Shown here piece by piece: positions 17,112-61,018 of a stretch of 64,000 nt of DNA. This DNA comes from Celeribacter baekdonensis (lineage in GTDB: Bacteria > Pseudomonadota > Alphaproteobacteria > Rhodobacterales > Rhodobacteraceae), in NCBI RefSeq assembly GCF_003047105.1, contig NZ_CP028475.1:1860001-1924000 (forward strand). The letters are read 5' to 3'. A program made the translations under genes and the position numbers. Every line of letters starts with the position of its first letter. Position 1 is the first letter of the stretch. A model generated the notes under the pieces. That model was not told the DNA's origin. It saw only the letters and a program-made list of their open reading frames with translations, and did not search any database.

Positions 17112-18562
17112 TCAACTCAGCGCCCCACCAATGGCAAAGCCCACCGCCAACAAGCCGCAGATGCGTGAAATCCGGTCTTTGACAGCAAAGACAATCGGAT
17201 CGTCATGCATTTCGCCGCGATGGGTCGTCATCACGATCCAGCTCACCCAGAACAGTAAAACAAGGCAAATCCCCAAAGCACCGACGGGTTTGAATACAAC
17301 AGGCTGACTTGTGGTGAGTTCATATAGAGCGCCAAAACCAGCACCGAGACATAGCCCGAGGCCAGCGCCATTTGCGAAATAATGCTCAAATCATCGACAT
17401 GATAGCCACGCCCAGAGGTCGAGAGTTTCCCCGCTTTGGCTGTATCCACCAGCTCGGCTTGGCGTTTGACGGCCGCGAGGGAAAAGAACAAAAACACCGA
17501 AAAGGCCAAGAGCCAGACCGACAAAGGCACCGAGGAGGCCACACCTCCGGCGATGATCCGCATCGTGTAAAGCCCGGCCAAAACGCAGATATCAATCACC
17601 ATGCGGCGTTTGAAATAAAGCGAATATCCCGTGGTCATGGCGTAATAACAGAGCATGACAAAGAGAAATAATGGGCTGATCAAAAGCGATAAAACAAAGC
17701 CCGCTGCAAACAATCCACCCGCCAATCCAGTTCCATGAGCAATGGGCAATGTGCCCGAGGCAAAGGGCCGTTTGCATTTGCGCGGGTGCGCCCGATCAGC
17801 GGCCAAATCCAAAAGATCGTTGAGCACATAGACCGAGGAGGCAACCAGAGAGAAGGCGCAAAAAGCCAGAAAGCTGGTGAAAAACGCGGCGAAATTCAAC
17901 TGGTGCCCCAGGAGCATCGGTAAAAACACCAAGATGTTTTTGAGCCACTGATGTGGGCGCAGCGCTTTGAGATAGGGTTTGTAATCCGTCTCAGCCGTGC
18001 CCAAATGCTCGACCTCGACACCAAGCCCGGCTGCTTTTGCGCGCAAATCCGCCGGCGCATTGACCGTAATCGCGCGCCCTGCCCCAGCCCAGACCAACAG
18101 ATCCGCCTCATGATCGCCCATGTAAGCATAAGATTTTGCGCCATAGCGATCGGTCAAAAACGCGGCCTTATTGTCACCTTTGAGATTGTTGATTCCGTCC
18201 GACCCATGCACCTCGTCAAACAGATCAAGATGCGCAGCGATCCGGTTGGCCAGCCCTTGATCTGAAGCGGTCACAAGCGCGGTTTTGCCGCCCGCCGCGC
18301 GCCAGTTGCGGATATAGTCGATCACGTCGTCATTGTAGGGCAGCGTTTCGACCACCACATCCGAGGCATCCGCCAGCGCACGTTTGAGCGCCGCCTTGCC
18401 GCCTGACAATGCCTTTACCGCCGCAAGCGCCGTGCGCCAATCTTTGGTCGCGGCACTCCAAAAGCTCTCATAGAGCATGTCGGATTTTAACAGCGTTCCG
18501 TCCAAATCCACGGCCAAAACCAAATCGGCTTTCGCCGCGCCCATCACTGGAGCATCGCTCAT
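17112..18562 (-). pseudogene. HAD hydrolase / UbiA prenyltransferase fusion, frameshifted near its C-terminus
   Basis: Residues about 1-200 are a HAD domain (nucleophile motif LAVDLDGTLL with Asp19/Asp21; later AYMGDHEADLL). Residues about 200-480 are a UbiA-type membrane prenyltransferase with the Mg-diphosphate motif NDLLDLAADRAHPRKCKRP. The open frame stops at 17243 after LWGFALFYCSG. Adding one G to the run at 17271-17274 restores a frame that reads LWGICLVLLFWVSWIVM and continues through the family segment HDDPIVFAVKDRISR to a stop at 17112 (483 residues). Probably an intact gene with a consensus error. The UbiA branch resembles decaprenyl-phosphate phosphoribose synthases, but the substrate is unknown. 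Confidence 0.85.
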
Positions 18563-18783
18563 ACCATCTCACCTCATCCAACCGCTCTGTCGCATAAAAG
18601 AGGCCGAAGCCGGTCGATCATGCGTGGCGTTGCTTATCTTTACCGCAAAGATGCACAGTCATATGGGCGAGGGAAAGCCTTCGTGGGGCACAGAGGCCGA
18701 ATTGAACATGAAACGGGGCAAATCCGCCACGCGCATTCCGGCTTGACCCTCCCGCAGTCATGTCATACCTAAGGGCGCACTGC

Positions 18784-18857
18784 GCGGGCGTTGTGTAGTG
18801 GTAAGACCTTAGCCTTCCAAGCTAATGACGCGGGTTCGATTCCCGCCGCCCGCTCCA
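18784..18857 (+). tRNA. tRNA-Gly (anticodon TCC)
   Basis: Full cloverleaf: acceptor GCGGGCG pairs with CGCCCGC, anticodon arm TTAGC-CTTCCAA-GCTAA carries TCC, and the T arm is CGGG-TTCGATT-CCCG. CCA is encoded at 18855-18857. 74 bases. Confidence 0.97.
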
Positions 18858-18924
18858 ATTTCTCCCCCTTTTATCCGGCCCGAACGCAAAGTGCAGATGC
18901 TTTGGCGTCCATGTTTTGCGTCCA

Positions 18925-18956
18925 AAAACGAAAACGGGGCCCCGAAGGACCCCGTC
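18925..18956 (-). terminator. Rho-independent terminator of the DUF2892 gene
   Basis: On the minus strand ACGGGGTCC-TTCG-GGGCCCCGT is followed by TTTTCGTTTTT, 20 bases downstream of the stop at 18977. Confidence 0.8.
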
Positions 18957-18976
18957 TGTTCTGCGTTTGCTGCGTC

Positions 18977-19183
18977 TTATTTTTCGAAAGCGCACCCAAC
19001 CGGAAGACCCATTTTGGCAAAGATTTTTGCCGCAGGGCACCAGCCGGTGAAGGATGATTGCAGCAGATTCGCGCCAATAAAGACGGTGAACCAAACAAAG
19101 CCGGGATGGACGAACTGGGTCAGCAATACGCTGATCAGGACCATAATTCCGGCGAAACGAAACATAGCGCGGTCGATGGACAT
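18977..19183 (-). CDS. DUF2892 (YgaP-type transmembrane) family protein
   Basis: 68 residues starting MSIDRAMFRFAGIMVLISVL, with two hydrophobic segments and the family's FTGWCPAAKIFAKMGL segment near the C-terminus. It corresponds to the membrane domain of YgaP without the rhodanese domain. The start at 19183 gives the standard family N-terminus. A SqrR-like operator 61 bases upstream suggests sulfide or persulfide control. The function of stand-alone members is not established. Confidence 0.87.
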   Translation of the reverse strand: MSIDRAMFRFAGIMVLISVLLTQFVHPGFVWFTVFIGANLLQSSFTGWCPAAKIFAKMGLPVGCAFEK

Positions 19184-19243
19184 AGGGACAACTCCAATGA
19201 TGTATGAGATCTTTGACACCGAGCTAACATCTCTCGAAAACAA

Positions 19244-19259
19244 ATTCAATCTTTTGAAT
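19244..19259. promoter_or_regulatory. Candidate SqrR/BigR-type operator (ATTC-N8-GAAT)
   Basis: The sequence ATTCAATCTTTTGAAT lies 61-76 bases upstream of the DUF2892 start. Its form is exactly ATTC-N8-GAAT, which I recall as the SqrR persulfide-sensor site in Rhodobacter capsulatus, and a persulfide-responsive regulator fits a YgaP-like target. The site is seen; the regulator is inferred. Confidence 0.55.
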
Positions 19260-19270
19260 GAAACTGCGTC

Positions 19271-19672
19271 TTAGGATCGCACCTTAAAAGTGCCAACCCC
19301 CGTGGCGATCCATTCCCCCGTCTCATCCAAGAGCCGCCCTTCGGTGAAAAACGTTTTGGCTCCGCCGCCAACCCGCCGGCCTTCGGCAATGAGGCGCGCG
19401 CCTTTGGGCCGAGACAGATAATTGACCGTCAGTGAGAGCGTCAACGTCATCCGCAAGTCCTGCGCATCCCCCTTATAAGCGCCGGAATAGCCCATAGCTG
19501 TGTCCAACATCGCGGCATAAATCCCGCCATGTGGAATGCCAGAGCGGTTTGCCATAAACGGTGCGATATCGGCCTCGAACCGGGCAAAATCTGTGCTCCA
19601 CGCGGTCATCTCGACCCCAAGATGGGCCATGGCAGGTGATAAAGGTTCCAACAGCGGGTCGTGATCCGTCAT
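19271..19672 (-). CDS. PaaI-type hotdog acyl-CoA thioesterase
   Basis: 133 residues with the PaaI family pattern: ANRSGIPHGGIYAAMLDTAMG (His-Gly-Gly with a downstream Asp) and LSLTVNYLSRPKGARLIAEG. Overlaps the upstream yedK-like gene by four bases (ATGA). Acyl specificity is unknown. Confidence 0.85.
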   Translation of the reverse strand: MTDHDPLLEPLSPAMAHLGVEMTAWSTDFARFEADIAPFMANRSGIPHGGIYAAMLDTAMGYSGAYKGDAQDLRMTLTLSLTVNYLSRPKGARLIAEGRRVGGGAKTFFTEGRLLDETGEWIATGVGTFKVRS

Positions 19673-20334
19673 TCATCAAGCTCCTCAATAAGCTCAGGCC
19701 CTAAGGCCCGATTGGAATTTATCGCGCGGCTGACCCGGTGAAAGCGCAGCGCTTCGTCGGGGGCCGCACACATCAACGTCGCCGCCCCATGGCCCTCTTC
19801 GCCAAGCCATTTTGCCCAGTGTTCAGGACGCACCATCACTGGAATGCGATGATGAATCTCTGCCATACGACCCTGAGCCTCGGTGGTGACCATGGCGCAG
19901 GTCGACAGGCGCTGGCCATCCTGTTGCCAGTCCTGCCAAATCCCGGCAAAGACCATCGGCCCCTCACCTGCGGGCTGTATGAACCACGGCTGTTTGTCAC
20001 CCGCTTCGGGGCGATGCCATTCATAAAACCCATCCGCAGGAATGAGGCAACGGCGCACACGGCAGGCCTCGCGAAAGACGGGCTTGTCCGCAAGGGTTTC
20101 GGCGCGGGCGTTGATCAACAAGGGGCCGTCATTGGGCGCTTTGTACCATTTAGGAACAAAACCCCAACGCATTGGCACAAGGCGACGGTGGTCATCGGTG
20201 CGATAGATCACATGGATGTCCGTCGTCGGACAGACATTGTAATTGGGCACGTGAGGCAAGGTGTTCGCAGGGGCAGCATCAAACAACTGCGCCATCGCAT
20301 CAGAGGGAAGGGTATTGGCGAAGCGTCCACACAT
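19669..20334 (-). CDS. yedK: SOS response-associated peptidase (YedK/HMCES family)
   Basis: Protects abasic sites in single-stranded DNA by covalent attachment through Cys2. 221 residues. The invariant MCGRFA start places Cys2 after Met removal. INARAETLADKPVFREA, LIPADGFYEWHRP (catalytic Glu) and MAEIHHRIPVMV (catalytic His) are all present. First gene of a two-gene unit with the thioesterase. Confidence 0.95.
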   Translation of the reverse strand: MCGRFANTLPSDAMAQLFDAAPANTLPHVPNYNVCPTTDIHVIYRTDDHRRLVPMRWGFVPKWYKAPNDGPLLINARAETLADKPVFREACRVRRCLIPADGFYEWHRPEAGDKQPWFIQPAGEGPMVFAGIWQDWQQDGQRLSTCAMVTTEAQGRMAEIHHRIPVMVRPEHWAKWLGEEGHGAATLMCAAPDEALRFHRVSRAINSNRALGPELIEELDE

Positions 20335-20381
20335 GAGATGGATATACGCGCGACCCAGAGGAACGGAAAGCCTCTTTGCGC

Positions 20382-21254
20382 CTAGAAACTAAAGCCCAAT
20401 CGGTCATTCATCCAAAGGCGTCGGGTTTGCAATGCGCCCCGCGTTCCTGCCCGCGTCCCGGTCTCAAACCGATAGGCGATGGAATAGGTCATTTGCGAAT
20501 TGGAGCTGTCATGGTTGTCCGATTGCATCGCGCGCACATGGAGAGTCGAGTGATCATTCAAATTGTAAAGCATGGAGAGGCTATAAAAATCAAACGGCTC
20601 GCTGAGCTCTGCCCCAGCGTAAGCGGCCCATTTGCCCCCCAAAAGCGCACCGCCGCCAAATCCTATTGTCGGTGCGGCGTCACTGGCCTCTTTGACCCCA
20701 CCGAGAAGATAGAGAGCGCCCGCCTCATACTCGCCCCAAATTCGCGCAGTCGAGACCCCGGCATCGAGACTGTGATCCAGATGGCCATAAAGCGCCAATG
20801 CGTCCAACGGGCGGTAACGCGCCTCAAGAGACAGGAGATCATCGCCATGATCCGCAAACGCATGGCGAAGGCCCAAAACGGCCCCCAATCGGTCGGCCTT
20901 ATGGTCAAGATAGAGACCGGCATAGTCGCGATCCGTGTGATCATATTCCGCCACCAACCGCAGGGCCTCGGTCAAACTATACCCGACCCAGAACGCTTGA
21001 GACTGTAGGTTAAAGGTGGCGATCCCTGGAAATTCGGACCGCACATAGCGAAAGGAGCCGCCAAAGAACGCCGCGTCCTGCGCCCATTCGACCGCAGCGG
21101 AAGCCTCATATTCGGTCCATTCAAAACCCGATGTTCCGCCATCGGAATGGAGGGCAGAAAGTCCCAAATCGACATAGCTTGCCTGAGCATGCGCGCACAG
21201 TGGCAACAGCGTTCCAATGAACAGCAACAAAGAGCAAAGGCCAGACCGAAACAT
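20382..21254 (-). CDS. Predicted outer-membrane beta-barrel protein
   Basis: 290 residues from the ATG at 21254, with a signal peptide ending near LLPLCAHAQA. The mature protein alternates short amphipathic beta strands and ends in phenylalanine (NDRLGFSF), a typical barrel C-terminus. No porin family is recognisable. An upstream start at 21308 in the same frame is possible but weakens the signal peptide. Confidence 0.7.
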   Translation of the reverse strand: MFRSGLCSLLLFIGTLLPLCAHAQASYVDLGLSALHSDGGTSGFEWTEYEASAAVEWAQDAAFFGGSFRYVRSEFPGIATFNLQSQAFWVGYSLTEALRLVAEYDHTDRDYAGLYLDHKADRLGAVLGLRHAFADHGDDLLSLEARYRPLDALALYGHLDHSLDAGVSTARIWGEYEAGALYLLGGVKEASDAAPTIGFGGGALLGGKWAAYAGAELSEPFDFYSLSMLYNLNDHSTLHVRAMQSDNHDSSNSQMTYSIAYRFETGTRAGTRGALQTRRLWMNDRLGFSF

Positions 21255-21350
21255 GAGGATTCCCGCGATTAAAGATACGGACCCATGAACTCCGAAACGC
21301 CTTAACAAACCCCCAACAAAAATGGATTTTCGATCTTTCGCGAAAACTCT

Positions 21351-21656
21351 CTACCGATGCGCTTTGCGGGCGATGTCAATTTTGGCATCCATCATCGACA
21401 TGTCTTTCATGATTTCGGTGCGCCTGGTCCGGTCCGAAGTCTCGCGCAACTCGGCGCGCAGTTTTTCCAACTCCCGCCCCAACAACACAAACTCCGGCAC
21501 GCCGCCGTTTTCCTGAATCAACCGGTTCAAAAGCGCGTTTTCCGGATCATCGCAGTCAGGCAAAGGCTTGCCCGCACCGGGCAGGTTGTCGAACTCGCCC
21601 CGCGCTTCGGCCTCGGCTATTTTGGCGTTGATCAGATCGAGAAGCGGATGATCCAT
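21351..21656 (-). CDS. DUF1992 (DnaJ-homologue subfamily C member 28-like) protein
   Basis: 101 residues with the conserved DUF1992 core: INAKIAEAEARGEFDNLPGA, then GKPLPDC and a helical C-terminus (LGRELEKLRAELRE). No J-domain is present, as usual for bacterial members. The ATG overlaps the stop of the GFA gene by one base (TAATG). Function unknown. Confidence 0.88.
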   Translation of the reverse strand: MDHPLLDLINAKIAEAEARGEFDNLPGAGKPLPDCDDPENALLNRLIQENGGVPEFVLLGRELEKLRAELRETSDRTRRTEIMKDMSMMDAKIDIARKAHR

Positions 21657-22138: not shown

Positions 22139-22159
22139 GTCCTAAAGGTCTCTGTCATA

Positions 22160-22192
22160 AGAAAAGCCCCCGCAACGGTAGCGAGGGCTTTC
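22160..22192 (-). terminator. Rho-independent terminator of the 5'-nucleotidase gene
   Basis: Minus-strand stem AAAGCCCTCGC / GCGGGGGCTTT (one G-U pair) around TACCGTT, followed by TTCTT, 38 bases past the stop. Confidence 0.75.
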
Positions 22193-22229
22193 CAACTTTT
22201 CCAGCATCTAAAGAGGAAGAAACGCCGCC

Positions 22230-23912: not shown

Positions 23913-24514
23913 TCATTGTTTTTCGACAATCCAACCAGACAGCACATCACGCGCCAACCGATGCGGGTCCGTCGCAAGCCGCCCTGTGAGCAACCTCAGC
24001 CAAGCCGCAGCCATGATGGTATCCGCGAGGGCCTCCGGTGCGACACTCTCGTGCAGTTCGCCGCATGTCTGCGCCCATCCGACCACGTCGATCAACGCCG
24101 CCAACCGCTCTAAACGATAGCGCTCTAAAGCCTCCGCCACATCCTGATCCGACTGCGCCTCGGCAATGATCAAAGGAAACACCTGCCCTTCGGGGTTTGC
24201 CAGAAGGTGAACACATAGCGATAAAACTCCGCAATGGTGTCAACCAGATTGCCCATGTCCCTGTGCTGATGCGCGCCCTTAGAGCGCTCATAGACCGCCA
24301 CCAAAAGTGCCCCCCGGTTGGGCCACCATTTGTAAAGCGTTGCTTTGCCCGCACGCGCACGCCGCGCCACCGCCTCCATCGTCAGGCCATGCACGCCCTT
24401 TTCGCGCAACAGATCACAAGCCGCATCCAGAATCGCCGCCTCGGTTGCCGGGTTGCGGCGCGCGCCAATGGACCGCCTCTGCGGCTTTGCACACTCACCT
24501 GTGACGTTTGGCAC
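23913..24514 (-). pseudogene. TetR/AcrR family regulator, frameshifted in the middle
   Basis: The N-terminal half (GTG start at 24514) is a TetR DNA-binding domain: ATEAAILDAACDLLREKGVH and MEAVARRARAGKATLYKWW. This frame ends at 24170. The next frame starts VFPLIIAEAQSDQDVAEALE and runs to 23913. Adding one base to the G run at 24192-24195 joins them as WQTPEGQVFPLIIAEA, giving 200 residues, a normal TetR length. Two palindromes just upstream are probable self-operators. Likely intact in the real genome. Confidence 0.85.
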
Positions 24515-24576: not shown

Positions 24577-24590
24577 GTTTGGAGTATCAT

Positions 24591-26313: not shown

Positions 26314-27638
26314 TTACCCCGCGCGCGTGGCCTGTGCCTCAAGCCCCGGATATTTCCACAAAAGCGTCGCACCCCGTGCGATATAGCTGACCATCAACGC
26401 CGCCCAAAGCCCGTGATTGCCAAACAACGGGATCAGGACAGTGGCAGCGATGACATAGGCCAAAAGCGACAGGATCATCATATTGCGCATGTCGCGGGTG
26501 CGGGTTGCGCCGATGAAAATCCCGTCCAACATCCACGCCGCCAAGCCCAACAACGGGGCCAAGACCATCCACGGTAAAAACGCCCGCGCCGCAACGCGCA
26601 CCTCGAGCGCGGTGGTCATGGTGTCGATGATCGCGCCACCAAAGACGGCAAAACCCAGCGCCAAAAGCCCAGAGGCAATCAGCCCCCAAAACGAGGCAAG
26701 CATTGCCCCGCGCCGCAGCGCGTCCCGCGAACGTGCCCCCAGCGCGTGACCGACAATCGCCTCGGCTGCAAAGGCAAAACCATCAAGGGCATAGGCGGTG
26801 ATTTCGATGAACTGCATCAGGATTTGGTTGGCCGCCAAGGTCCGGTCGCCAAACCCGGCGCCAAGGAAGGTAAAGCTGACCATAATGGCGAGCAAAAGCA
26901 CCGAGCGGATCAAAATATCGGTGTTGACCTTGGCCATATAGATCAGTCGCGCCCGGTCAAACACCCGTGCCCAATCGCGCCAACTTGGCACGTTAAACGC
27001 ATCGCGACAGAGCCAAAGCCCCATCATCGCACCGCTGATTTCGGCCAAAACCGTGGCCGCTGCGACGCCTTGGACACCCCAACCCAGCCCCAACACAAAC
27101 CAAAGATCCAACCCGATGTTGAGCCCGTTCATCCACAATTGCAGCACCAAAACGCCGCGGGTACGCTCTTGGGCGATCAACCAGCCGGTGACGCCGTACA
27201 GCGCAATGGCGAAGGGCGCGGACCAGATGCGAATGGAGATATAGCTGCGTGCAAGGCTTTCGACCTCGGGCGAGGCCGGAGACAGACGAAATGCGGCCCA
27301 AAGGATTGGGATTTGAAACGCAATCAACGCGACGCCGCCAACCACACCAATCATCAAAGCGCGGGTCAAAAGGGCGGCCACTTCGCCCGTATCGGAGGCC
27401 CGCGCGCCTGTGACACAAGCCCAGTGGTGCCCATGCGCAAAAACCCGAAGAGCCAATAGATCGACGCCAAAATGATCGCGCCAATGCCCACGGCGCCGAT
27501 CGGAGCGGCAAGCCCCATTTGCCCCACCACGCCGGTGTCGACCGCGCCAAGGATCGGCACGGTGGCATTGGAGAGCACGATGGGAATGGCGATTTTGAGC
27601 ACCCGTCTGTGGGTCAACTCGACGCCGACGTCCGCCAT
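26314..27638 (-). pseudogene. MATE family efflux transporter, frameshifted near its N-terminus
   Basis: The first frame (start 27638, MADVGVELTHRRVLKIAIP) encodes helices 1-2 through FLRMGTTGLVSQARG. The second carries the rest from ASDTGEVAALLTRALM to 26314. The junction is the C run at 27399-27401. One extra base restores SQARGASDTGEVAALLT and a 441-residue protein with 12 membrane segments, DinF-like. The start at 27638 is two bases after the thioesterase stop. Substrate unknown. Probably intact in reality. Confidence 0.85.
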
Positions 27639-27639
27639 T

Positions 27640-28137
27640 TTAAGACGCGACCGCAAGCTCGGGCATCAGAAAATGCCCCATCGCTTGCACAGTTGGGCGC
27701 GCCCGGTTGTCTTGCCAGGCTTCTACCTGCACGGAGGCATACCGCCGCCCAGCGCGCGTGATCTCGGCGCGGGCATAGGCATCGCGCGGCAGACCGGAGC
27801 GCAGATAGTCCACAGTTATGTCAATGGTCTTCGGCAAAGCGGGCATCGTCTCAACACTCTCCCCCGCCTCCATCCGCGGCCAAATCAGCGACCAGCCCAG
27901 CGCCATGATCGCCGTGACCTCCAAAAACGCAGCCAAAGCCCCGCCATGCAGCGCAGGCAGGGTGGGATTTCCAATCAAATCAGGACGATACGGCATTATC
28001 GCGGTCAACTCATCGCCGCGCCGCTCAAATTCAAACCCCATGAAGGTGATATAGGGCACCCGCGCCACCAAAGCGGAAAGCGCTGCATCGCGCCGCTCTT
28101 TGACAACTTGGACAGGTTCGGGTTTGGGTCGGCTCAT
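27640..28137 (-). CDS. PaaI-type hotdog thioesterase
   Basis: 165 residues from the ATG at 28137, overlapping the previous stop by one base (TGATG). Conserved PTLPALHGGALAAFLEVTAI and TIDITVDYLRSGLPRDAYAR segments match PaaI-type acyl-CoA thioesterases. In tandem with a second hotdog gene and upstream of a MATE pump. Confidence 0.82.
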   Translation of the reverse strand: MSRPKPEPVQVVKERRDAALSALVARVPYITFMGFEFERRGDELTAIMPYRPDLIGNPTLPALHGGALAAFLEVTAIMALGWSLIWPRMEAGESVETMPALPKTIDITVDYLRSGLPRDAYARAEITRAGRRYASVQVEAWQDNRARPTVQAMGHFLMPELAVAS

Positions 28138-30331: not shown

Positions 30332-30834
30332 GGGCCAAGCATATCCGCAGAGCCAAAAGGATCAAAAGCCGCGGCGAGTGTTGCGCCGCTGCTGTGGTTT
30401 GACCGTCCCCTCCTTGTCATGAATGCCTATGTCGCTGTGCGCGCACCTTGTGACACAAGCGCAGCGTTTACGACGTAACGTCTTTGACGAGCCAAAATGC
30501 CTATTGCGGTTTGATTGCACTCTAAACGACGCCCCCTCAACGTCGCACGCAGCAGAATCCATATAAAAACCAAAGCGCTTTTACCGCTATTTTACATGAC
30601 ATTTTCTTGCTCTTCAGATCAATTTCCCAAACCGTTTGCAATCAATCTGCCTAATGAATATCTTTTGACTGAGACGCTCCGACGCGCAAAACTGCCTGAT
30701 CGGAAGTGACGCCACGTTTCGATTAAAGAGATGGGCAAGAAGCGAATAGGATGGGGCGAAGGCAGAGCTTGCGCGTCCCACAGTCAGAGCGTGGATCACA
30801 TCCACCCCTGACGGGAAACGGAGTAAACCGCCCG
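30332..30834. other. 503-base intergenic region between two MerR genes
   Basis: No credible gene. It is more AT-rich than its surroundings from about 30,480 to 30,720. A short perfect dyad TTACG-A-CGTAA lies at 30468-30478, similar in style to MerR/LiuR operators, and is the best candidate site for control of the downstream beta-oxidation operon. Confidence 0.5.
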
Positions 30835-39742: not shown

Positions 39743-40761
39743 ATGATCGCGCTCACCGAATTCGACCGGCTCGAAGCCAGCGCCCTGTGGCGACCCGAGG
39801 GAGACACCCAGCGGGTTGAGGTGATTGTGTCTGTCGGCGAGGCAACGCTGACCTTGTCAGACATCAAAGGCCGCGTCTTGACCCATTGGTCTTTGCCTGC
39901 GGTCATTCGGGTCTCGCCCCCGGCGAACGCCCTGTCACCTTTGCCCCCGCACCTGACACCGATGAACAGGTCGAAATCGACGATGAACTGATGATCGAGG
40001 CCATCGGGCGGATCCACCGCGCTATAGATCGCGCCCGCCCGCATCCGGGCCGCCTGCGCGGCGCGATCTATGCCGGCGTTGCTCTGGCCGCCGTCGGGCT
40101 GGCGCTATTTTGGCTTCCCGGCGCGCTCATCCGTCAAACCGTGTCTATCGTGCCAACTGTAACCCGAGCCGAGATTGGTGCTGGGCTATTGGACCGCATC
40201 CGCCGCCTCTCCGGCGCGCCCTGCGATACCGTCCATGGTGCGCGCGCGCTTGAGCGACTGAAGACCCGGCTGTTCCCCAAGGGCGGTGGACAAATTGTGG
40301 TGGTAACCAGTGGCGTTGCCGTGTCTCAACACCTGCCCGGCGGCATCCTGCTGTTGAACCGTGCCCTGGTCGAGGATCACGAAAACCCGGATGTTGTGGC
40401 CGGTTATGTGCTTGCAGAACTCGAACGCGCCGCCGAAGAAGATCCGCTTGAACGTCTCTTGCATGAGGCCGGATTGATGGCCTCAATCCGGCTTTTGACC
40501 CGAGGACACCTGTCGGAAGAGGTGCTTGACGCCCATGCCGAAAGCCTGTTGACCGCGCCCATGACGGACCCTGACATGGAACCGCTCATCGCGCAATTCG
40601 CCCGGACCCAAGTGCACAGCGCGCCCTATGCCTATGCGCTCGACATCACTGGCGAAACCGTGCTGCCGCTGATCGAGGCCGATGGCGTTCAAATCACCGA
40701 GACCCGACCCGTCTTATCCGATGGCGACTGGGTGGCACTGCAAGGGGTCTGTGGAGGTTAA
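39743..40761 (+). pseudogene. Conserved membrane protein of unknown function, frameshifted
   Basis: The first frame (start 39743, MIALTEFDRLEASALWRPEG) is followed after a shift at the C run 39917-39921 by PGERPVTFAPAPDTDEQVEI and a membrane helix (AIYAGVALAAVGLALFWLPG). The C-terminal half may be protease-like: GGILLLNRALVEDHENPDVV recalls M48 peptidase spacing but lacks a clear HExxH. Adding one C gives a continuous 339-residue protein, a layout I recall in other Rhodobacteraceae. Confidence 0.75.
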
Positions 40762-42476: not shown

Positions 42477-43100
<624 letters not shown>

Positions 43101-43108
<8 letters not shown>

Positions 43109-44093
43109 TGGTTTGCTCCAGTTTTTTAGCAACGGCCTCTCGGGTCGCGTCATCACAAAAGGCTGCCTCAAGCGCAACCCTATTCAATTCCATGAAATCC
43201 TCGGCCTCCCAACCAAAGGTCTCGGACAAACGGTCAAATTCACGTCGCATCGTGGTGTGGAAAAACGGTGGATCGTCGGTGGAAATGGTGACTTTCACGC
43301 CGCGTTTGCGCAGCTCAGCAATCGGATGATCCGACCATTTTGGATAGACACCCAGCACCACATTCGATCCTGGACAGACCTCCAAAACAATGCCTGCCTC
43401 GGCAATCTCATCGACCAGAGCCAAGTCTTCGATCGCGCGCACACCATGACCGATCCGTTCGACTTTGAGATCACGTATGGCATCGCGCACACTGTCCGGC
43501 CCGCCCCATTCGCCCGCATGGGACGTGAGCCGCAGCCCCGCCTCGCGCGCCATGTCAAAAGCGTAGGCAAAATCACCCTGCGCCCCCATCGCCTCATCAC
43601 CGCCCATGCCAAAACCGGTGACAAATCCGCCGACAGTTTCCGCCGCACAAAGCGCCGTTTTCTTGGCCTGATCGGGACCAAAATGGCGCACACAGGTTGG
43701 GATCGCGCGCATCACGATCCCCGCCTCGCGTTCCATCTCATCGGCGGCCTGTTTGATCGCGGCAACATAATCCTGCCACGCCATCACATCGCCACCACCG
43801 CAAAAATCCGGGGCCAGAAAGCTTTCGGTGTAGATCACATTCGAGGCCGCGCTTTGCTCAAGCACGGCGCGGGTCAGGCGGTAGTAATCCTGCGGCGTTT
43901 TCAACACCGATGTCGCCGCCTCATAGACGTTGAGAAAATCCCAAAAGTCTTTGTATTTATAGGCCCCTTTGTCATCAAAAATGCCCGAAAGATCGGTCTT
44001 TTTCTCAGCGGCCAAGCCACGGATAAACGCAGGCGGGGCAGCGCCTTCGAGATGCATGTGCAGCTCAATTTTAGGCAGATCAGAAACGCTCAC
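43101..44093 (-). CDS. add: Adenosine deaminase
   Basis: Deaminates (deoxy)adenosine to (deoxy)inosine. 330 residues. Metal ligands in [13 protein letters not shown], then [12 protein letters not shown] (metal His and catalytic Glu region), [10 protein letters not shown] and [13 protein letters not shown]. Starts with GTG, overlapping the deoB stop (GTGA). Fourth gene in cdd-deoA-deoB-add-upp. Confidence 0.95.
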
Positions 44094-45301
44094 AGAAAAC
44101 TCCTTCCGGGGCCTTGGGCGGCAATACCCAGATGATCGGCAATGGAGACCGCCACATCGGTGAAGGCCACCTTGCCAATGGGTTTCACGCCCAAACCATA
44201 GCCCAAAACCGGCACCCGTTCGCGGGTGTGATCGGTGCCGGGCCAGGTTGGGTCATTGCCGTGATCGGCGGTGAAAATCAAAAGATCGCCCTCACGGGCG
44301 CGCTTATAAAGCCGCGCCATTTGGGCATCGAACCACTCAAGATGACGGGCATAGCCGGAAACATCACGACGGTGACCATAGAGGCTATCGAATTCGACAA
44401 AATTGGCAAAGGCAAACGCCCCGTCAGGGGCCTCGTCCATCACGTCGCACAGATGATCAAACAGCACCGCATCCGTGCCTTTACGGACCTCATCAATGCC
44501 CTGCATCGAAAAAATATCTCCAATCTTTCCAACGGCATAAACCGACCGTCCCGCCGCTTTCGCCCAATCGCACAGCGTTGGTGCAGGTGGGGCAATGGCG
44601 TAGTCATGCCGATTTCCGGTGCGAGAAAACCCGTCCTCAACCGTACCTCGGAAAGGACGCGCTATGACACGGCCGACCTTCATTTTATGTAGGACCGGTG
44701 CGATGTCTTGGCAAAGTTTCAAAAGCCGATCGAGGCCGAAATGCTCTTCGTGAGCGGCGATTTGAAACACGCTGTCAGCGGAGGTGTAGCAAATCGGCCA
44801 CCCGGTCTCGATGTGCTTTGCGCCCCAGTCTTTGATCACCTCGGTGCCTGAGGCATGACAATTGGCCAAAGTACCGCCCGCCCCACAAAGCTCGGCGACC
44901 TGATCCATCAGGTCTTGCGGGAAAGACGGCAGGGTCGGCGGAAAATAATGCCAGTCCCACGGCACCGGCACCCCCGCCAATTCCCAATGACCCGAGGGGG
45001 TGTCTTTCCCCGGCGAGACCTCTGCGGCAACGCCATATAGCCCCTCTGGCATGGAGGTCAGACCCGGCGCAGGATCGGAACTGGCGTGCCCCATCGCGGC
45101 CCCCAAACCAAGCGCATCCAAATGCGGGATGTGCAGCGGACCGGAGCGCCCCTCCTCGGCGCGCCCCTCGGCACAGGCCTGCGCGATATGGGCGATGGTG
45201 TTGGCACCTTCATCCGGTAAATCTCCGTTAAAAAACGCATCCGCATCCGGCGCCCCGCCAAGGCCCACGGAGTCCATCACAATTAAAAATGCACGTGTCA
45301 T
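44090..45301 (-). CDS. deoB: Phosphopentomutase
   Basis: Interconverts (deoxy)ribose 1- and 5-phosphate. 403 residues of the alkaline-phosphatase-like fold. Metal-binding segments include VMDSVGLGGAPDAD at the N-terminus and FTADHGNDPTWPGTDHTRER near the C-terminus. PSGHWELAGVP is a family signature. Overlaps deoA by four bases (ATGA). Confidence 0.97.
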   Translation of the reverse strand: MTRAFLIVMDSVGLGGAPDADAFFNGDLPDEGANTIAHIAQACAEGRAEEGRSGPLHIPHLDALGLGAAMGHASSDPAPGLTSMPEGLYGVAAEVSPGKDTPSGHWELAGVPVPWDWHYFPPTLPSFPQDLMDQVAELCGAGGTLANCHASGTEVIKDWGAKHIETGWPICYTSADSVFQIAAHEEHFGLDRLLKLCQDIAPVLHKMKVGRVIARPFRGTVEDGFSRTGNRHDYAIAPPAPTLCDWAKAAGRSVYAVGKIGDIFSMQGIDEVRKGTDAVLFDHLCDVMDEAPDGAFAFANFVEFDSLYGHRRDVSGYARHLEWFDAQMARLYKRAREGDLLIFTADHGNDPTWPGTDHTRERVPVLGYGLGVKPIGKVAFTDVAVSIADHLGIAAQGPGRSFL

Positions 45302-46617
45302 ACTGTTACCTTCTCGTAAACCAATGGCGGCTCATCAGGCACCTCGTCCGTGATCGGGATCGCGGCGCGAATGGCGGCTTCGGCCCGGTCGGCGTCCTGC
45401 GGGGTACGCGCATGAATCGTCGCAATCAAAGCGTCCTCAACCATCTCATCGCCGATCATACAGCAATTGGAAATGCCGACAGCCGGGTCGATTTTTTCGC
45501 CCCCCTGAAGGCGTCCACCGCCCAAATGCACCACAGCCATACCCAAGGCGTGACCATCCATGACCCCCACAAAGCCGGGCGTCAAAGCCTGCACATCCCG
45601 CACAATCGGCGCCGACGGCAAGCGGTCCCGCCAATGATCGACAAAATCCGCTGGGCCGCCCAATTCGGTGATCATGCGACCAAACCGTTCGGCGGCGGAC
45701 CCATCGGTCAGCGTGCCGCGAACCGCCCAAGTGGCTTGATCCACGTCATCGGACAATCCCGCCAGAACCAACAATTCCCCACCCAGCGCACAGGTGACAT
45801 CACACAGGATATTGTCCACCTCGCCCGAGGTCAGCGCCTCCATCACCGTCATCAGTTCCAATGCATTGCCCATCTCCGGGCAAAGCGGTTGGTTCATATC
45901 GGTGATCAGCGCGGAGGTTTTGCACCCAGCCCCGTTGGCCGTGGTCACAAGACTTTGCGCCAAAGCACGCGCATCCTCTGGGGTTTTCATAAAGGCGCCG
46001 GAACCGCATTTGACATCCAATACCAAGGCATCCAATCCGGCGGCGAGTTTTTTCGACAGGATCGAAGCGGTGATCAAATCAATGCTCTCGACCGTGCCGG
46101 TGACATCGCGAATGGCATAGAGCCGTTTGTCAGCAGGAGCGATCGACCCGGTGGCAGAGACGACCGCGCAGCCGACCCGTTCGACGATCTGATGAAACCG
46201 CGCCTCGGAAACTTCGGTTTTGAGGCCCGGAATGGCTTCGAGCTTGTCCAATGTGCCGCCAGTGTGGCCAAGGCCCCGGCCCGACACCATCGGCACATAG
46301 GCCCCCAAAGCGGCCAAGGCGGGAGCGAGCAGCAAGGAAACGCAATCGCCGACACCCCCGGTCGAATGTTTGTCAATCGCAGGCGCAGGCAAATCCCACC
46401 GCATCACCTCACCACTGTCACGCATTGCAAGCGTCAAAGCGACCCGTTCGGGATCAGACATGCCGTTCAAAAGCGCGGCCATGGCAAAGGCCCCAGCCTG
46501 CGCATCGGTGACCGCACCTGAGGCCAGGCCTTGGGCGAACCAAGCCAGCTCGTCTTGGGTCAGATCTCTCTTGTCCCGCAGCTTTTCGATCACCAGACGC
46601 GCGTCCATCGGCCTCAT
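45298..46617 (-). CDS. deoA: Thymidine phosphorylase
   Basis: Phosphorolyses thymidine and deoxyuridine. 439 residues. Phosphate and nucleoside motifs DKHSTGGVGDCVSLLLAP and VLDVKCGSGAFMKTPEDA are intact, with the typical VVTRWP-free C-terminal beta domain ending VYEKVTV. Overlaps cdd by four bases. An internal ATG three codons later is a possible alternative start. Confidence 0.97.
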   Translation of the reverse strand: MRPMDARLVIEKLRDKRDLTQDELAWFAQGLASGAVTDAQAGAFAMAALLNGMSDPERVALTLAMRDSGEVMRWDLPAPAIDKHSTGGVGDCVSLLLAPALAALGAYVPMVSGRGLGHTGGTLDKLEAIPGLKTEVSEARFHQIVERVGCAVVSATGSIAPADKRLYAIRDVTGTVESIDLITASILSKKLAAGLDALVLDVKCGSGAFMKTPEDARALAQSLVTTANGAGCKTSALITDMNQPLCPEMGNALELMTVMEALTSGEVDNILCDVTCALGGELLVLAGLSDDVDQATWAVRGTLTDGSAAERFGRMITELGGPADFVDHWRDRLPSAPIVRDVQALTPGFVGVMDGHALGMAVVHLGGGRLQGGEKIDPAVGISNCCMIGDEMVEDALIATIHARTPQDADRAEAAIRAAIPITDEVPDEPPLVYEKVTV

Positions 46618-47000
46618 TCCATATAATCGGGGGTAAACGCACCGGGCAAAAGTTGCTCGACGGTCATGGTCAACACTTTGCCGGACATCGACCCCATGGT
46701 GACCTTGACCGACGGATCGGCAAATTCACGCAGCTTTTGACGACAGCCACCGCAGGGCGGCGTGGGCTCTTGGCTTGAGCCGATCACGGCGACCTCTGTG
46801 ATCACAGTGTCGCCGCCCGCGATCATCGCGGCGATGGCTCCGGCTTCGGCACAGGTGCCCTCAGGATACGCAGCGTTTTCGACATTCACGCCGGTGAACA
46901 CCGCGCCCGATGGCGTGCGGATCGCCGCGCCGACTTTAAAGTTGGAATAAGGCGCATAGGCCATTTCGCGGATTTTGGTGGCATCTTCGAGCAGGGTCAT
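46614..47000 (-). CDS. cdd: Cytidine deaminase
   Basis: Deaminates cytidine/deoxycytidine. 128 residues from the ATG at 47000. Zinc and catalytic motifs GTCAEAGAIAAM (Cys and catalytic Glu) and PTPPCGGCRQKLREF (two Cys). Homotetrameric short-form family. First gene of the operon; the 343-base gap upstream separates it from divergent maeB. Confidence 0.96.
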   Translation of the reverse strand: MTLLEDATKIREMAYAPYSNFKVGAAIRTPSGAVFTGVNVENAAYPEGTCAEAGAIAAMIAGGDTVITEVAVIGSSQEPTPPCGGCRQKLREFADPSVKVTMGSMSGKVLTMTVEQLLPGAFTPDYME

Positions 47001-47343
47001 TGCAAAACGGGACCTTATTTGGCGATATTTGGTGACATTTTTTAAAGCTTGGTCAAGATTGCGCGGGCGCGTGCTAAGATGCAAGTGGGATGCGGCGGAT
47101 GCAGACGCGGATCATGCAATTTGCCCTCGGTCTGCGGAAAAGCGCCGCAAGGAGCGTCATGTTTGCGCTAACGTCACCAATCTTTGCACTTAGGCGCTCA
47201 AACACCTCTTGCGTGAAGCCCTGCGCCGGGCGTAGACGCTGAGCAACAGCACGACATGACGTAGGGTCGCAATATTTAGTTTAGCACTAAACTAAATCAA
47301 AACCCAAAACGCCGAACCAGACGATAAAGACGCAGGAAGGGAA
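47001..47343. other. Divergent promoter region of cdd and maeB
   Basis: No gene found. It holds promoters for the nucleoside operon (left) and maeB (right), and a perfect 24-base palindrome at 47274-47297 close to maeB. Confidence 0.6.
47274..47297. promoter_or_regulatory. Perfect 24-base palindrome upstream of maeB (candidate operator)
   Basis: Half-site ATTTAGTTTAG, 2-base spacer CA, then the exact complement, 46 bases before the maeB start. The AT-rich, GNT-phased form suggests a MarR/LysR or GntR type repressor. I do not know the cognate regulator. With T-rich flanks on neither side it is not a terminator. Confidence 0.65.
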
Positions 47344-54954: not shown

Positions 54955-54968
54955 AATGAGCGCCGCAT

Positions 54969-55727: not shown

Positions 55728-56016
55728 CTGTGGGACTTCTCTTTGTCTGGCGAAGAGGGCGAACCGGCGTGGCCCGTGCCCTTGGTTACCAAAGCCTTAG
55801 TCGGAATTCACGCTTTTTCGCACGACGTCCCTCGCCAGACGGCACGCGACCAAACGCCCCGATCCCGAGACGCGTGGCGCGGATCGGAAACCCCTGCCCT
55901 CTCTGATCGCCCAGATCGCTCATTTCATCATCATTATGCAACGGATGAGGGTTTTCCAAATGTAACAGAATGGCTAAGAAGCCCGCGACACTCCCACGCT
56001 GCCAAGGAGCATGTGC

Positions 56017-57312
56017 ATGACGTCCAATGTCCGCGATTCCGGTTTCTTTACCGAACCCCTGTCCACCCGTGACCCCGAACTGTTTGGTTCAATCACCCAA
56101 GAGCTTGGCCGTCAGCGCCATGAGATCGAATTGATCGCCTCTGAAAACATCGTCTCCGCGGCGGTGATGGAGGCCCAAGGCTCGGTCCTGACCAACAAAT
56201 ATGCCGAAGGCTATCCGGGCCGTCGCTACTATGGCGGGTGCCAATATGTGGACATCGCCGAAAACCTCGCGCGGGATCGCGCGAAACAGTTGTTCGACGT
56301 TAAGTATGTGAACGTACAGCCAAATTCTGGCTCCCAAGCCAACCAGGGTGTGTTCACGGCGCTGCTTGAACCGGGCGACACCATCCTTGGCATGTCCTTG
56401 GACGCCGGTGGTCACCTGACCCACGGGGCCAAGCCGAACCAATCCGGCAAATGGTTCAACGCCATCCAATACGGGGTCCGCAAACAGGACCAGCGCATCG
56501 ACTATGATCAGGTGCAGGAACTGGCCAACGAACACAAACCCAAGATGATCATCGCTGGTGGCTCCGCCATTCCGCGTCAGGTCGATTTCAAGAAAATGCG
56601 TGAGATCGCTGATTCTGTTGGTGCCTATCTGATGGTCGACATGGCGCATTTCGCCGGTCTCGTGGCGGGTGGTCAGCACCCCTCGCCCTTCCCCTATGCC
56701 GATGTCGCGACCACCACGACCCACAAAACCCTGCGCGGTCCGCGCGGTGGCATGATCCTGACCAACGATGTCGAGATCGCCAAAAAAGTGAACTCCGCGA
56801 TTTTCCCAGGCATTCAGGGCGGCCCGTTGATGCATGTCATCGCGGCCAAAGCCGTGGCCTTTGGCGAGGCGCTGCGTCCCGAGTTCAAAGAATACGCCAA
56901 GCAAGTGATCGTGAACGCGCAAGCGCTGGCCGATCAGTTGATGAAAGGCGGCCTTGATATCGTCACCGGGGGCACCGACACCCATGTGTTGCTGGTCGAT
57001 CTGCGCCCCAAAGGTGTGAACGGCAAAATCACCGAGGCCGCTTTGGAGCGCGCGCATATCACCTGCAACAAAAACGGCATCCCGTTTGACCCGGAACCGC
57101 CGATGATCACCTCTGGTGTGCGTCTTGGGACACCTGCGGGCACCACGCGTGGCTTTGGCGAGGCTGAGTTCCGCCAGATCGCGGATTGGATCGTTGAAGT
57201 GGTCGACGGTCTCGCCGCCAATGGCGAAGAGGGCAACGCAGACGTCGAAGCCGCGGTGAAAGCTAAGGTGGAAGCGCTGTGCGAAACATTCCCGCTCTAT
57301 CCGAACCTGTAA
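56017..57312 (+). CDS. glyA: Serine hydroxymethyltransferase
   Basis: PLP enzyme converting serine and THF to glycine and methylene-THF. 431 residues from the ATG at 56017, chosen because AAGGAG lies 7 bases upstream; an ATG at 56011 is possible. [35 protein letters not shown] and the PLP lysine in [17 protein letters not shown] are present. Not in an operon; a terminator follows. Confidence 0.97.
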
Positions 57313-57333
57313 GAGCAATCTAAGTATGATATC

Positions 57334-57357
57334 AAAGGGGCCCCGCCGGGCCCCTTT
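57334..57357 (+). terminator. Rho-independent terminator of glyA
   Basis: AAAGGGGCCC-CGCC-GGGCCCCTTT, followed by a T-rich stretch (CTGTTTGTT), 21 bases past the stop. Confidence 0.75.
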
Positions 57358-57382
57358 CTGTTTGTTGTGTGAGTGATTTCAA

Positions 57383-58243
57383 ATGGCCCAACCGACCAAA
57401 ATCGAGCGCGCCTTAGGCGATTGGCTGCGAGCCCGCTTGCCGCATGGCGTGAGCGAACTCATCATGTTCATCGTCAAAATGGGCTGGGCCGCACTGTTTG
57501 GCGGTCTGCTTTTGATTGCGATGATGCTCACCCACAAGCTCTGGCATGACGACTGGCCCATCGCCCGCTATGACGCGCTTTTCGCCTATGCGTTGAGCCT
57601 GCAAATCCTGTTTTTGGTGTTTCGACTGGAAACTGTGGGCGAGGCCAAGGTCATCCTGCTGTTTCACCTCACCGGCACGATCATGGAGATTTTCAAACTC
57701 CATATGGGAAGCTGGGATTACCCCGGCGCAGGCCTGATCAAAATCGGCGGTGTGCCTTTGTTTTCGGGTTTCATGTATGCCTCCGTCGGTAGCTTCATGG
57801 CCCGCGCCATTCGCCTCTTTGACATGCGGTTCGCGCCCTACCCGCCCTATTGGGCCGCGCTGCTGTTTGCCTGCGCGATCTACCTCAATTTCTTCACGCA
57901 CCACTTTATGCCCGACATCCGCTTGGGCCTCTTTGCCGCCTCGCTGCTGCTCTATGCCCGCACCCGTGTGTGGTATCGCATTGGCGGTTGGTATTGGATG
58001 CCGATGCCCATTGCGGGGGGGCTCTCCGCCTTTTTCCTTTGGGTCGCGGAAAACGTCGGCACCGCCACAAAGATCTGGCTCTACTCTGGCCAAGTCCCCG
58101 GACAGCTTGTGCATTTTTCGAAAATGGGATCGTGGTATCTTTTGCTCTATGTGAGCTTTGTCACCGTCACCTTGGTCCAACGCGAGGCACTTTCACCCGA
58201 TCCGTTTAGACCAGAGCCTAAATCAGACCCTGCCACATCATAA
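57383..58243 (+). CDS. DUF817 integral membrane protein
   Basis: 286 residues with about eight membrane segments. The central segment LLFHLTGTIMEIFKLHMGSWDYP and FLWVAENVGTATKIWLYSGQ are characteristic of DUF817. Reaction unknown. Its 3' end overlaps the convergent 123-residue gene by 26 bases. Confidence 0.87.
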   Translation: MAQPTKIERALGDWLRARLPHGVSELIMFIVKMGWAALFGGLLLIAMMLTHKLWHDDWPIARYDALFAYALSLQILFLVFRLETVGEAKVILLFHLTGTIMEIFKLHMGSWDYPGAGLIKIGGVPLFSGFMYASVGSFMARAIRLFDMRFAPYPPYWAALLFACAIYLNFFTHHFMPDIRLGLFAASLLLYARTRVWYRIGGWYWMPMPIAGGLSAFFLWVAENVGTATKIWLYSGQVPGQLVHFSKMGSWYLLLYVSFVTVTLVQREALSPDPFRPEPKSDPATS

Positions 58244-58589
58244 CGCCAAGGATCAGGCAACCCGTGGCAAAAATGATAAAGGCCACGGTGCTGATCCAAT
58301 CGAGAATGCGTTTTTTGACGCGGGCTTTGGGATCTTGTCGCGTGAGAAAATAGCGCAGCTCCTTAAAGGCCCGGTTCACCTTGGCATGGTTGATCTGTTG
58401 CGCCAATTTCGGATGGGTTTCCAAGGCCATCGCCTCAACGATGACTTCCCCTTTCCGACGCGCCCAACGCGGCAAACGCCGCCCCGCCTTCGTGACCTTA
58501 GCCGCAAAGCCATCGCCCAGATGCACCCCCATACGGTCACGCAAAAGCGTGCTCAATTCTTCGGCTCTGTGGGCGATGGATGTCGTCAT
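58218..58589 (-). CDS. Small protein with C-terminal membrane helix, unknown function
   Basis: 123 residues: a basic N-terminal soluble part (GRRLPRWARRKGEVIVEAMA) and one C-terminal membrane helix (ILDWISTVAFIIFATGCLIL). The C-terminal anchor with a basic cytoplasmic head may suggest membrane-tethered function. I recognise no family. Overlaps the DUF817 gene end-to-end. Confidence 0.65.
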   Translation of the reverse strand: MTTSIAHRAEELSTLLRDRMGVHLGDGFAAKVTKAGRRLPRWARRKGEVIVEAMALETHPKLAQQINHAKVNRAFKELRYFLTRQDPKARVKKRILDWISTVAFIIFATGCLILGVMMWQGLI

Positions 58590-58641
58590 AAACTCGTTTT
58601 AAGGGGTTTGACAGGGACCGCCAAGCCGCTATCTGTGGGGC

Positions 58642-59421
58642 ATGCTCAACACCGTTCTCACCGGCTCCCCAACGGACCGCCCGCCCCTTTTGATCGTCCA
58701 CGGCTTGTTCGGGTCCGCCCGCAACTGGGGCGTCATCGCAAAACGCCTTTCCGATCAACGGCTTGTCCTTTCCGTCGACATGCGCAACCACGGCGACAGC
58801 CCGCGATTTGCAACCCAAAGCTACCCGGATATGGCCGCCGATCTGGCCGAGGTCTTGGAGGCGCATGTGGGCACCTATGGCCCCTGTCATGTGATGGGCC
58901 ATTCGATGGGCGGCAAGGCGGCGATGATGCTGGCCCTGACCCGGCCTGAACTGCTTAAATCTTTGACTGTCGCGGATATTTCGCCCGTCGCCTACGCCCA
59001 TGACAACACACCTTTGATCCATGCGATGCGTGGGCTGGACCTCTCTAAGGTTGAGAAACGATCCGACGCAGATCAAATGTTGGCGCATGATATTTTGGAC
59101 GCAGGCGTGCGGGCGTTTTTGCTCCAAAGCCTTGTCGTCAAAGAGAAAAAATGGCTTTTGAATTTGGAGACTCTAGAGGCCGAAATGGGCAAGATCGTTG
59201 GGTTCCCCGAGGTGTCCGGCACCTATGACGGCTCCGCATTTTTCCTGTCAGGCGGCGAGAGTACCTATGTGTCTCGCGACCACCGGGATGCCACCAAAGC
59301 CCTGTTCCCAAATGCAAAATTCGCTTCTATTCCCGGCACGGGCCATTGGCTTCATGCCGAGAAACCACGCGAATTCGAGGCGGCACTGCGGGCGTGGATG
59401 GACGCCGTCGACGCGCAGTGA
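58642..59421 (+). CDS. Alpha/beta hydrolase (YbfF-type esterase)
   Basis: 259 residues. Oxyanion-type LLIVHGLFGSARNWG at the N-terminus, nucleophile Ser in HVMGHSMGGKAAMMLAL, an Asp in the MRNHGDSPRF-type segment and the catalytic His in GTGHWLHAEKP. The order and length match YbfF esterases. Divergent from the 123-residue gene by 52 bases. Confidence 0.87.
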   Translation: MLNTVLTGSPTDRPPLLIVHGLFGSARNWGVIAKRLSDQRLVLSVDMRNHGDSPRFATQSYPDMAADLAEVLEAHVGTYGPCHVMGHSMGGKAAMMLALTRPELLKSLTVADISPVAYAHDNTPLIHAMRGLDLSKVEKRSDADQMLAHDILDAGVRAFLLQSLVVKEKKWLLNLETLEAEMGKIVGFPEVSGTYDGSAFFLSGGESTYVSRDHRDATKALFPNAKFASIPGTGHWLHAEKPREFEAALRAWMDAVDAQ

Positions 59422-59428
59422 ACGCGGA

Positions 59429-59614
59429 TCAAAACTCTTCGGTGATCTTTTTCGAAATGATCCAAGTCACAGGAATCGCGACCACAAATCCAATCGCTGC
59501 GGCGACCAAAATCGGCTGCAACGTGTCTTTGCCGATGGTCAAGGCCACGACAATGGCGACACCCATCAAGGTTGTCGAAATCAGCGAAAACAAAATGCCA
59601 GCAAGGCGGGTCAT
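59429..59614 (-). CDS. Small two-helix membrane protein
   Basis: 61 residues: LAGILFSLISTTLMGVAIVV and ILVAAAIGFVVAIPVTWIIS are membrane helices, with a short KKITEEF tail. I recall similar short membrane proteins in roseobacters that carry an unhelpful CTP-synthetase label, but nothing here indicates that activity. Confidence 0.68.
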   Translation of the reverse strand: MTRLAGILFSLISTTLMGVAIVVALTIGKDTLQPILVAAAIGFVVAIPVTWIISKKITEEF

Positions 59615-59781
59615 GGGGTCTCTCCGTTAAAGTCGATCGCGCATGTCGGACGATAAGATGTTTTTTTGATACCGCTTTGATCTGAAACAAACGCCCCCTT
59701 GCGCGGGACTTTGCGCATCGGTTCGCTCTCCACCGACATCACTCTATATGTGTAGAGACTGACATTTAAATGGAGTGACCC

Positions 59782-59919
59782 ATGACACGCACCCTCATGA
59801 TCGGACTGAGCCTTTTGGCCCTCGTCGCCTGCGAAACCATAGAAGGCGCGGGGCAAGACCTATCCAAAGCCGGCAATGCGATTTCTCAAGAAAGCCGTGA
59901 GGTGCAGTCGGGGATGTGA
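59782..59919 (+). CDS. ecnB: Entericidin A/B family lipoprotein
   Basis: 45 residues: MTRTLMIGLSLLALVACETI gives a lipoprotein signal with lipobox LVAC (Cys17), then GAGQDLSKAGNAISQ, the conserved entericidin core. Likely an outer-membrane lipoprotein, possibly stress-linked. A short terminator follows within 40 bases. Confidence 0.85.
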   Translation: MTRTLMIGLSLLALVACETIEGAGQDLSKAGNAISQESREVQSGM

Positions 59920-59944
59920 TGTTTGACGTGTGATTGAAATGAAG

Positions 59945-59970
59945 CGCCCGCCGTTTGGTGGGCGTTTTTT
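59945..59970 (+). terminator. Rho-independent terminator after the entericidin gene
   Basis: CGCCCGCC-GTTT-GGTGGGCG (one G-U), followed by TTTTTT. Confidence 0.8.
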
Positions 59971-60208
59971 ATTTGGGGGGAGTCGTCTACGCGGGGCCTC
60001 CTCACCGTACTGGCATAGCGGTGAGCCGTTGAAATAGGAAGTGGCGGTGAAACCGTGGCCTAACAACAGGTCAAATTAATCTTGCAACCTGACTTATTCA
60101 GAAAATAGTCTAAACGACATTTATATTTTTGAGGCCACGCCAGCCAAACAAAGACGCGCAATTTTTCTAACGTCCATACTGTTGTTTATTGTCACAAAAA
60201 CACAGGCA

Positions 60209-61018
60209 GGTAATCCCCCCATTTTTAACGGGGTGCGGTCGTAGAACTTATGCGGCCATTTTCAGTTTCATGGCGGGTGTTATGCCGCCGATGCCCATGT
60301 TGGGGCGGTCGTTGTTGTAAGTCCATAACCATTGAGTGGCGTGATCTTGGGCCTCCTCGATGCTTTCGATGATGGATTGGTCGAGCCGCTCATGCCTGAC
60401 GGTGCGGTTGTAGCGCTCGATGTAAGCGTTTTGCTGAGGCTGGCCGGGTTGGATATGCTGGATGGTGACCCCATGTTTCTCGGCCCATTTCATCAGCTTT
60501 TCACTGATGTATTCGGGGCCATTGTCGACCCGAATGGTCCCGGGTTTTCCGCGCCACTCGATGATCCGCTCAAGGCTTCGGATCACACGCTCGGCGGGCA
60601 AGGAAAAGTCGACCTCGATGCCGAGGCCCTCACGGTTAAAATCATCCAAGACGTTCAGCAGCCGAAAGGCACGACCATCGCCGAGCCGGTCGGCCATAAA
60701 ATCCATCGACCAGGTGACATTCGGTGCTTCTGGCACCGCCAGCGCATCGGGCTTGTCCCTCTTCAGCCGTTTACGCGGCTTGATCCGAAGGTTCAGTTCA
60801 AGCTCGCAGTAGATCCGGTAAACCCGTTTGTGGTTCCATGGATGCCCCTTCACGTTGCGCAAATGCAGAAAACATAGCCCGAAACCCCAAGTCTTGCGGG
60901 CATCCGTCAGACCGGTCAGCAAATCAGCGATCTGCTCGTTCTCATCCCTCAGAAGTGGCTGTAGCGATAGCAGGTCTCGCTGACACCAAAAGCCCGGCAG
61001 GCCAGCGCAACGCTGACC
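60209..61018 (-). mobile_element. IS3-family insertion sequence remnant
   Basis: Only the 3' two-thirds of the element remain: most of OrfB plus an end (GGTAATCCCCCCATTTTTAA at about 60,209-60,228). OrfA, the 5' end of OrfB and the other terminus are missing, replaced by a truncated DUF393 gene. Boundaries are approximate. Not mobile on its own. Confidence 0.75.
60248..61018 (-). pseudogene. IS3-family transposase OrfB (truncated, with a possible frameshift)
   Basis: Integrase catalytic core: [20 protein letters not shown] (first Asp), [20 protein letters not shown] (second Asp) and [20 protein letters not shown] (Glu) give the DDE triad. The upstream [11 protein letters not shown] and ETCYRYS segments read in another frame; one extra base in the GG run at 60957-60958 joins them as YRYSPLLRDEN. 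The N-terminus and OrfA are gone, so it is inactive regardless of that shift. Confidence 0.85.

Follow-up and report, generated by a model that had tools for sequence, protein, structure and literature searches.

Five ordinary genes and one insertion element change reading frame at a short run of G or C within a window of 64,000 nucleotides, the whole stretch of DNA analysed here. The window covers positions 1860001-1924000 of a contig of 3,586,785 bases (C4), in an assembly of 4,436,768 bases and 6 contigs, and we infer that it belongs to the chromosome of Celeribacter baekdonensis LH4. The published LH4 genome consists of a 3,586,885-base chromosome and five plasmids (PMC5958252). The nearest relatives, both of the same genus, were C. 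baekdonensis B30 and DSM 27375, with 91% and 88% identity, respectively, over one test stretch. The features concerned are the following, in window coordinates; positions elsewhere on the contig carry the prefix C4.

17112..18562, minus strand: gene for a HAD-UbiA family prenyltransferase (the B30 protein is NCBIfam PRK08238), broken close to its 3' end, at 17271-17274
17271..17274, plus strand: run of four C in the HAD-UbiA gene, one base longer in both relatives
23913..24514, minus strand: gene for a TetR-family regulator, broken at 24192-24195
24192..24195, plus strand: run of four G in the TetR gene, one base short in LH4 and interrupted in the relatives
26314..27656, minus strand: gene for a MATE-family transporter, broken at 27399-27401
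27399..27401, plus strand: run of three C in the MATE gene, longer in both relatives
39743..40761, plus strand: gene for a 339-aa protein (labelled "membrane protein" in the first-pass annotation), broken at 39917-39921
39917..39921, plus strand: run of five C in the gene for the 339-aa protein, longer in DSM 27375 and interrupted in B30
42480..43177, minus strand: upp, encoding uracil phosphoribosyltransferase, broken at 42615-42618
42615..42618, plus strand: run of four G in upp, one base short in LH4 and interrupted in the relatives
60209..61024, minus strand: 816-bp fragment of an IS3-family element, orfB side, with rve and rve_3 domains; the orfA side is missing
60957..60958, plus strand: GG (CC on the coding strand) in the IS3 orfB; four related elements have one base more

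The first-pass annotation had read six frame breaks from these runs, and all six are indeed present in the assembled sequence, at CCCC, GGGG, CCC, CCCCC, GGGG and GG, respectively. Its wording that all lie in G/C homopolymers is loose for the IS3 site, where the run is only two bases long. When LH4 was searched with the B30 proteins, every one of the five ordinary genes gave matches in two neighbouring frames, which join at the run named above: residues 1-434 and 411-483 of 483 for HAD-UbiA, 1-113 and 109-200 of 200 for TetR, 1-86 and 87-447 of 447 for MATE, 1-60 and 60-339 for the 339-aa protein, and 1-189 and 188-233 of 233 for upp. Domain searches located the HAD and UbiA domains in the open reading frame (ORF) at 17243-18562, TetR_N in the fragment at 24170-24514 (with TetR domains in the B30 protein) and MatE both in a window fragment and in the intact B30 protein. 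The UPRTase domain is cut short in the window and whole in B30, where the protein scores above the TIGR01091 cut-off. The B30 version of the 339-aa protein had no Pfam or NCBIfam match.

Each of the five breaks amounts to a net one-base deletion in LH4 relative to both B30 and DSM 27375, and the deletion is private to LH4 at all five sites. A comparison of frames with close relatives, proposed earlier as a check, thus came out as anticipated: LH4 is broken and the relatives are intact at 5/5 ordinary sites. The TetR regulator is a 200-aa ORF in B30 and DSM 27375, the 339-aa ORF is whole in both, and the HAD-UbiA gene is open in one frame to its end at 36/36 loci, those of B30 and DSM 27375 included. 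As for the accompanying expectation of a longer run in the relatives, an uninterrupted longer run was seen in both at 17271 and 27399 and in DSM 27375 only at 39917, but not at 24192 and 42615. At these last two sites the relatives carry a different base inside the run, as does B30 at 39917.

The polarity of single-base changes was determined from two sets of three-way gene alignments. In the first set (394 alignments, 133,036 LH4 bases), clean single-base deletions and insertions numbered 24 and 6 in LH4, 2 and 2 in B30 and 2 and 7 in DSM 27375; this set takes in ORFs on either strand as well as gene ends, so that some of the LH4 deletions fall in front of a gene rather than within it. A G/C run of at least 2 bases adjoins 18 of the 24. 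The strict set (589 alignments; 131, 126 and 125 kb for LH4, B30 and DSM 27375) admitted a site only where each of the other two genomes has an ORF across it, and gave deletions and insertions of 11/3 in LH4, 0/0 in B30 and 1/2 in DSM 27375, with a G/C run of at least 3 bases adjoining 9 of the 11 LH4 deletions. Those 11 include upp by way of an opposite-strand ORF (the real gene covers the site too), miss TetR, and comprise two deletions, at C4:1941963 and C4:1942340, that rest on a putative ORF. The placement of the 11 is uneven: 10 come from the region surrounding the window, and the rpoB/ribosomal-protein region contributes 1. Indels were excluded if another gap lay within 12 columns, if the alignment ended within 12-15 columns, or if flank mismatches exceeded 6 (394 alignments) or 7 (589 alignments).

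Since LH4 has the longest branch, at over twice the length of each of the others (11,063 substitutions, against 4,488 and 5,296, over 199,298 columns), some of its private deletions are to be expected as real. The LH4 share of deletions nevertheless exceeds its 0.53 share of substitutions, with 24/28 in the first set (p = 0.0003) and 11/12 in the strict set (p = 0.006). Scaling from the one deletion found in B30 and DSM 27375 together predicts about one real deletion among the 11 strict LH4 ones, so that each of the five window sites, taken singly, could be real rather than an error.

Some further differences were observed along the way. Two deletions found in LH4 alone lie outside the window, at C4:1936882 and C4:1936898, 16 bases apart; both entered the strict count. 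They affect the 5' part of a gene for a DEAD-box RNA helicase, ahead of the region that encodes the helicase domain. Single-base T deletions found only in LH4 occur at window positions 30693, 34149 and 47018, near gene starts or in intergenic sequence. A single 617-aa ORF of B30 corresponds to two overlapping ORFs in LH4 at 45298-47084; here DSM 27375 seems to be LH4-like.

The dependence on run length was examined over 199 tiles (about 200 kb), using runs whose length is the same in the two relatives, and counting those that are one base short in LH4. For G/C runs these were 0/2,035 at length 3, 3/374 at length 4, 4/80 at length 5, 3/12 at length 6 and 1/1 at length 7. The loss rate thus climbs with G/C run length, as homopolymer consensus error predicts. 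For G/C runs of at least 4 bases the total was 11/467 in LH4 versus 0/456 in each of B30 and DSM 27375 (p = 6e-6), and neither of these two had a single G/C run of at least 3 bases that was one base short in the same test. DSM 27375 did have one G/C run shorter by two bases and another longer by one; a few A/T changes were seen in both relatives. A/T runs of at least 4 bases were one base short in 4/987 cases in LH4, at lengths 4-6 (p = 0.001 versus G/C, a test that omitted one A/T run a base longer, so that 982 of 983 unshortened runs were used). Among 2-base runs, 2/11,794 G/C and 4/6,226 A/T runs were shortened in LH4. The rRNA operons were also compared, to see whether errors recur in repeated sequence. 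The three LH4 copies show no run-length difference over their first 4,840 bases, and substitutions and one single-base gap follow after base 4,840. Against the relatives' rRNA pieces, the sole clean-flanked single-base gap among the matches listed is not a G/C contraction. This comparison had just seven runs of 5-6 bases to draw on and carries little weight.

Single-base deletions also split genes elsewhere on the contig. The rpoB gene (C4:2304280-2308412, outside the window) breaks at residue 1075 of 1378; the two frames show 99.5% identity over residues 1-1075 and 100% over residues 1076-1378. The tilS gene, for tRNA-Ile lysidine synthetase (C4:1855225-1856480, likewise outside), breaks near residue 315 of 419, and its B30 protein scores above the TIGR02432 cut-off. 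Both genes are open in B30 and DSM 27375, and a second copy of either was not found in the assembly. A cell with broken rpoB and tilS should not grow, and these two splits are therefore taken as errors. The five window sites share their context with these splits; the rpoB and tilS sites have a G/C run in LH4 and an interrupted run in the relatives, as seen at 24192 and 42615. The folD gene (C4:1851899-1852797, outside the window) is also split near its 3' end in LH4. Because LH4 has a further two complete homologues, with 81% and 62% identity, folD was left out as evidence from essential genes.

It appears, with high probability as judged from sequence comparison, that the breaks in the five ordinary genes are consensus errors of an assembly built from PacBio reads only. 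This explanation, which the first-pass annotation had extended to all six sites, holds at the five ordinary ones because the deletions are private to LH4 and biased over insertions, depend on run length, and have also hit rpoB and tilS; in that form it is not supported at the IS3 site. The assembly would sometimes write G/C runs of at least 4 bases one base short, with a chance of shortening that climbs steeply with run length, and such errors would cause roughly one false gene split for every 12 kb of coding sequence compared. In the organism itself the five genes are very probably intact, and the reads would be expected to show longer runs. The sequencing is in line with this, as the LH4 genome was read by PacBio RS II alone with P6-C2 chemistry and assembled with HGAP 3.0, with a consensus concordance given as 99.99% (PMC5958252). 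That figure corresponds to one discordant base per 10 kb, hence about 6 per 64 kb. Less easily accommodated are the runs in the relatives at 24192, 42615, rpoB and tilS, which are interrupted rather than longer, the private losses of LH4 outside long G/C runs (those in 2-base runs and in the four A/T runs of 4-6 bases), the uneven placement of the strict deletions, and the IS3 site.

Alternatively, all breaks might be real and LH4 might be losing genes as pseudogenes, perhaps as a strain unable to repair homopolymer slippage. The deletions are private to LH4, as this would have it, and TetR, MATE and upp are, from general knowledge, plausibly dispensable. Like deletions, however, split the sole rpoB and the sole tilS found in the assembly, and on these splits pseudogenisation or a mutator strain was rejected. 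Slippage should moreover produce insertions as well as deletions and should affect A/T runs too, whereas LH4 has 24 deletions versus 6 insertions and an excess at G/C. We consider this alternative very improbable.

The IS3 element calls for separate treatment. The chromosome also has two full copies of 1,197 bp at other places, which match each other at 1,197/1,197 bases; the window fragment is identical to both over 816/816 bases, and all three share the short form of the run. Three bases are present instead in four related elements, from Rhodobacteraceae bacterium SC52 (95% identical to the LH4 element), Paracoccus versutus and Pseudorhodobacter turbinis (two plasmids). An exact-pattern search for both forms in 394 genomes of a family sample gave three matches to the short form, all in LH4; neither form was matched in the 393 other genomes, a search in which diverged elements would be missed. 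One diverged copy on a second contig (C1), about 71% alike at the DNA level, aligns without a gap at the break. The full copies are also one base shorter than SC52 and P. turbinis in a long C run of the left terminal repeat. The GG site lies outside the error-prone class of runs, being two bases long (three in the related elements), and since no G/C run of three bases was shortened in the run-length comparison, it needs another cause. Nor was the variation between copies seen that a contraction error would lead one to expect, the three copies being identical.

The element has the rve domains of the IS3 family, and the full LH4 copies carry an A6G motif at the end of orfA. In the IS3 family A6G serves programmed frameshifting. 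The LH4 break at 60957 differs from this in lying inside orfB and not at the orfA/orfB junction, and the four related elements are unshifted there; a programmed frameshift was rejected on these grounds.

The IS3 break may then have been inherited as a mutation or may reflect a reproducible error of sequence context. We give about an even chance to the former, in which an ancestral copy lost a base of orfB and then spread with transposase supplied in trans, the other five breaks being errors. In its favour are the agreement of the three copies over 816 bases, and of two over all 1,197, the extra base in the related elements, the close SC52 element among them, and the lack of any shortened three-base G/C run in the run-length comparison. 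The ungapped copy on contig C1 might, speculatively, supply the transposase, but an enzyme encoded by DNA only about 71% alike may not act on the LH4 element. Against descent, a context error common to the copies would give an identical picture, and the exact-pattern search found the short form only in LH4. The other reading, a sequence-specific miscall repeated in each copy, for example at a base modification, is a serious possibility that falls somewhat short of even odds. It is in line with the shortened C run in the left terminal repeat, the class of error measured here, and with the few private losses of LH4 in 2-base runs, but the same lack of shortened three-base G/C runs speaks against it. 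Should the break be genuine, the element would be non-autonomous yet recently copied in the chromosome with the transposase of another element, a proposal that we regard as tentative and rather unlikely.

Residual homopolymer errors of long-read-only assemblies, and the false gene breaks that result, are well described in the parts of the Polypolish (PMC8812927) and Kastor (PMC12007338) papers considered here. The LH4 breaks resemble those errors in that single-base deletions split genes and are detectable against relatives. They differ in that G/C runs dominate and the reads are PacBio RS II P6-C2, whereas the error profile of Kastor, in the part of that paper considered, is of MinION assemblies. 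A narrow literature search returned no paper on homopolymer consensus errors of P6-C2. The breaks in the five genes are very probably an instance of a known long-read homopolymer error, an ordinary artefact. A reference genome classed as "complete", that of a marine bacterium that oxidises thiosulfate, holds false gene breaks, rpoB and tilS included, and counts of gene loss, pan-genome content and pseudogenes derived from the LH4 assembly may be inflated. For the annotation of LH4, the five genes of the window should be treated as present.
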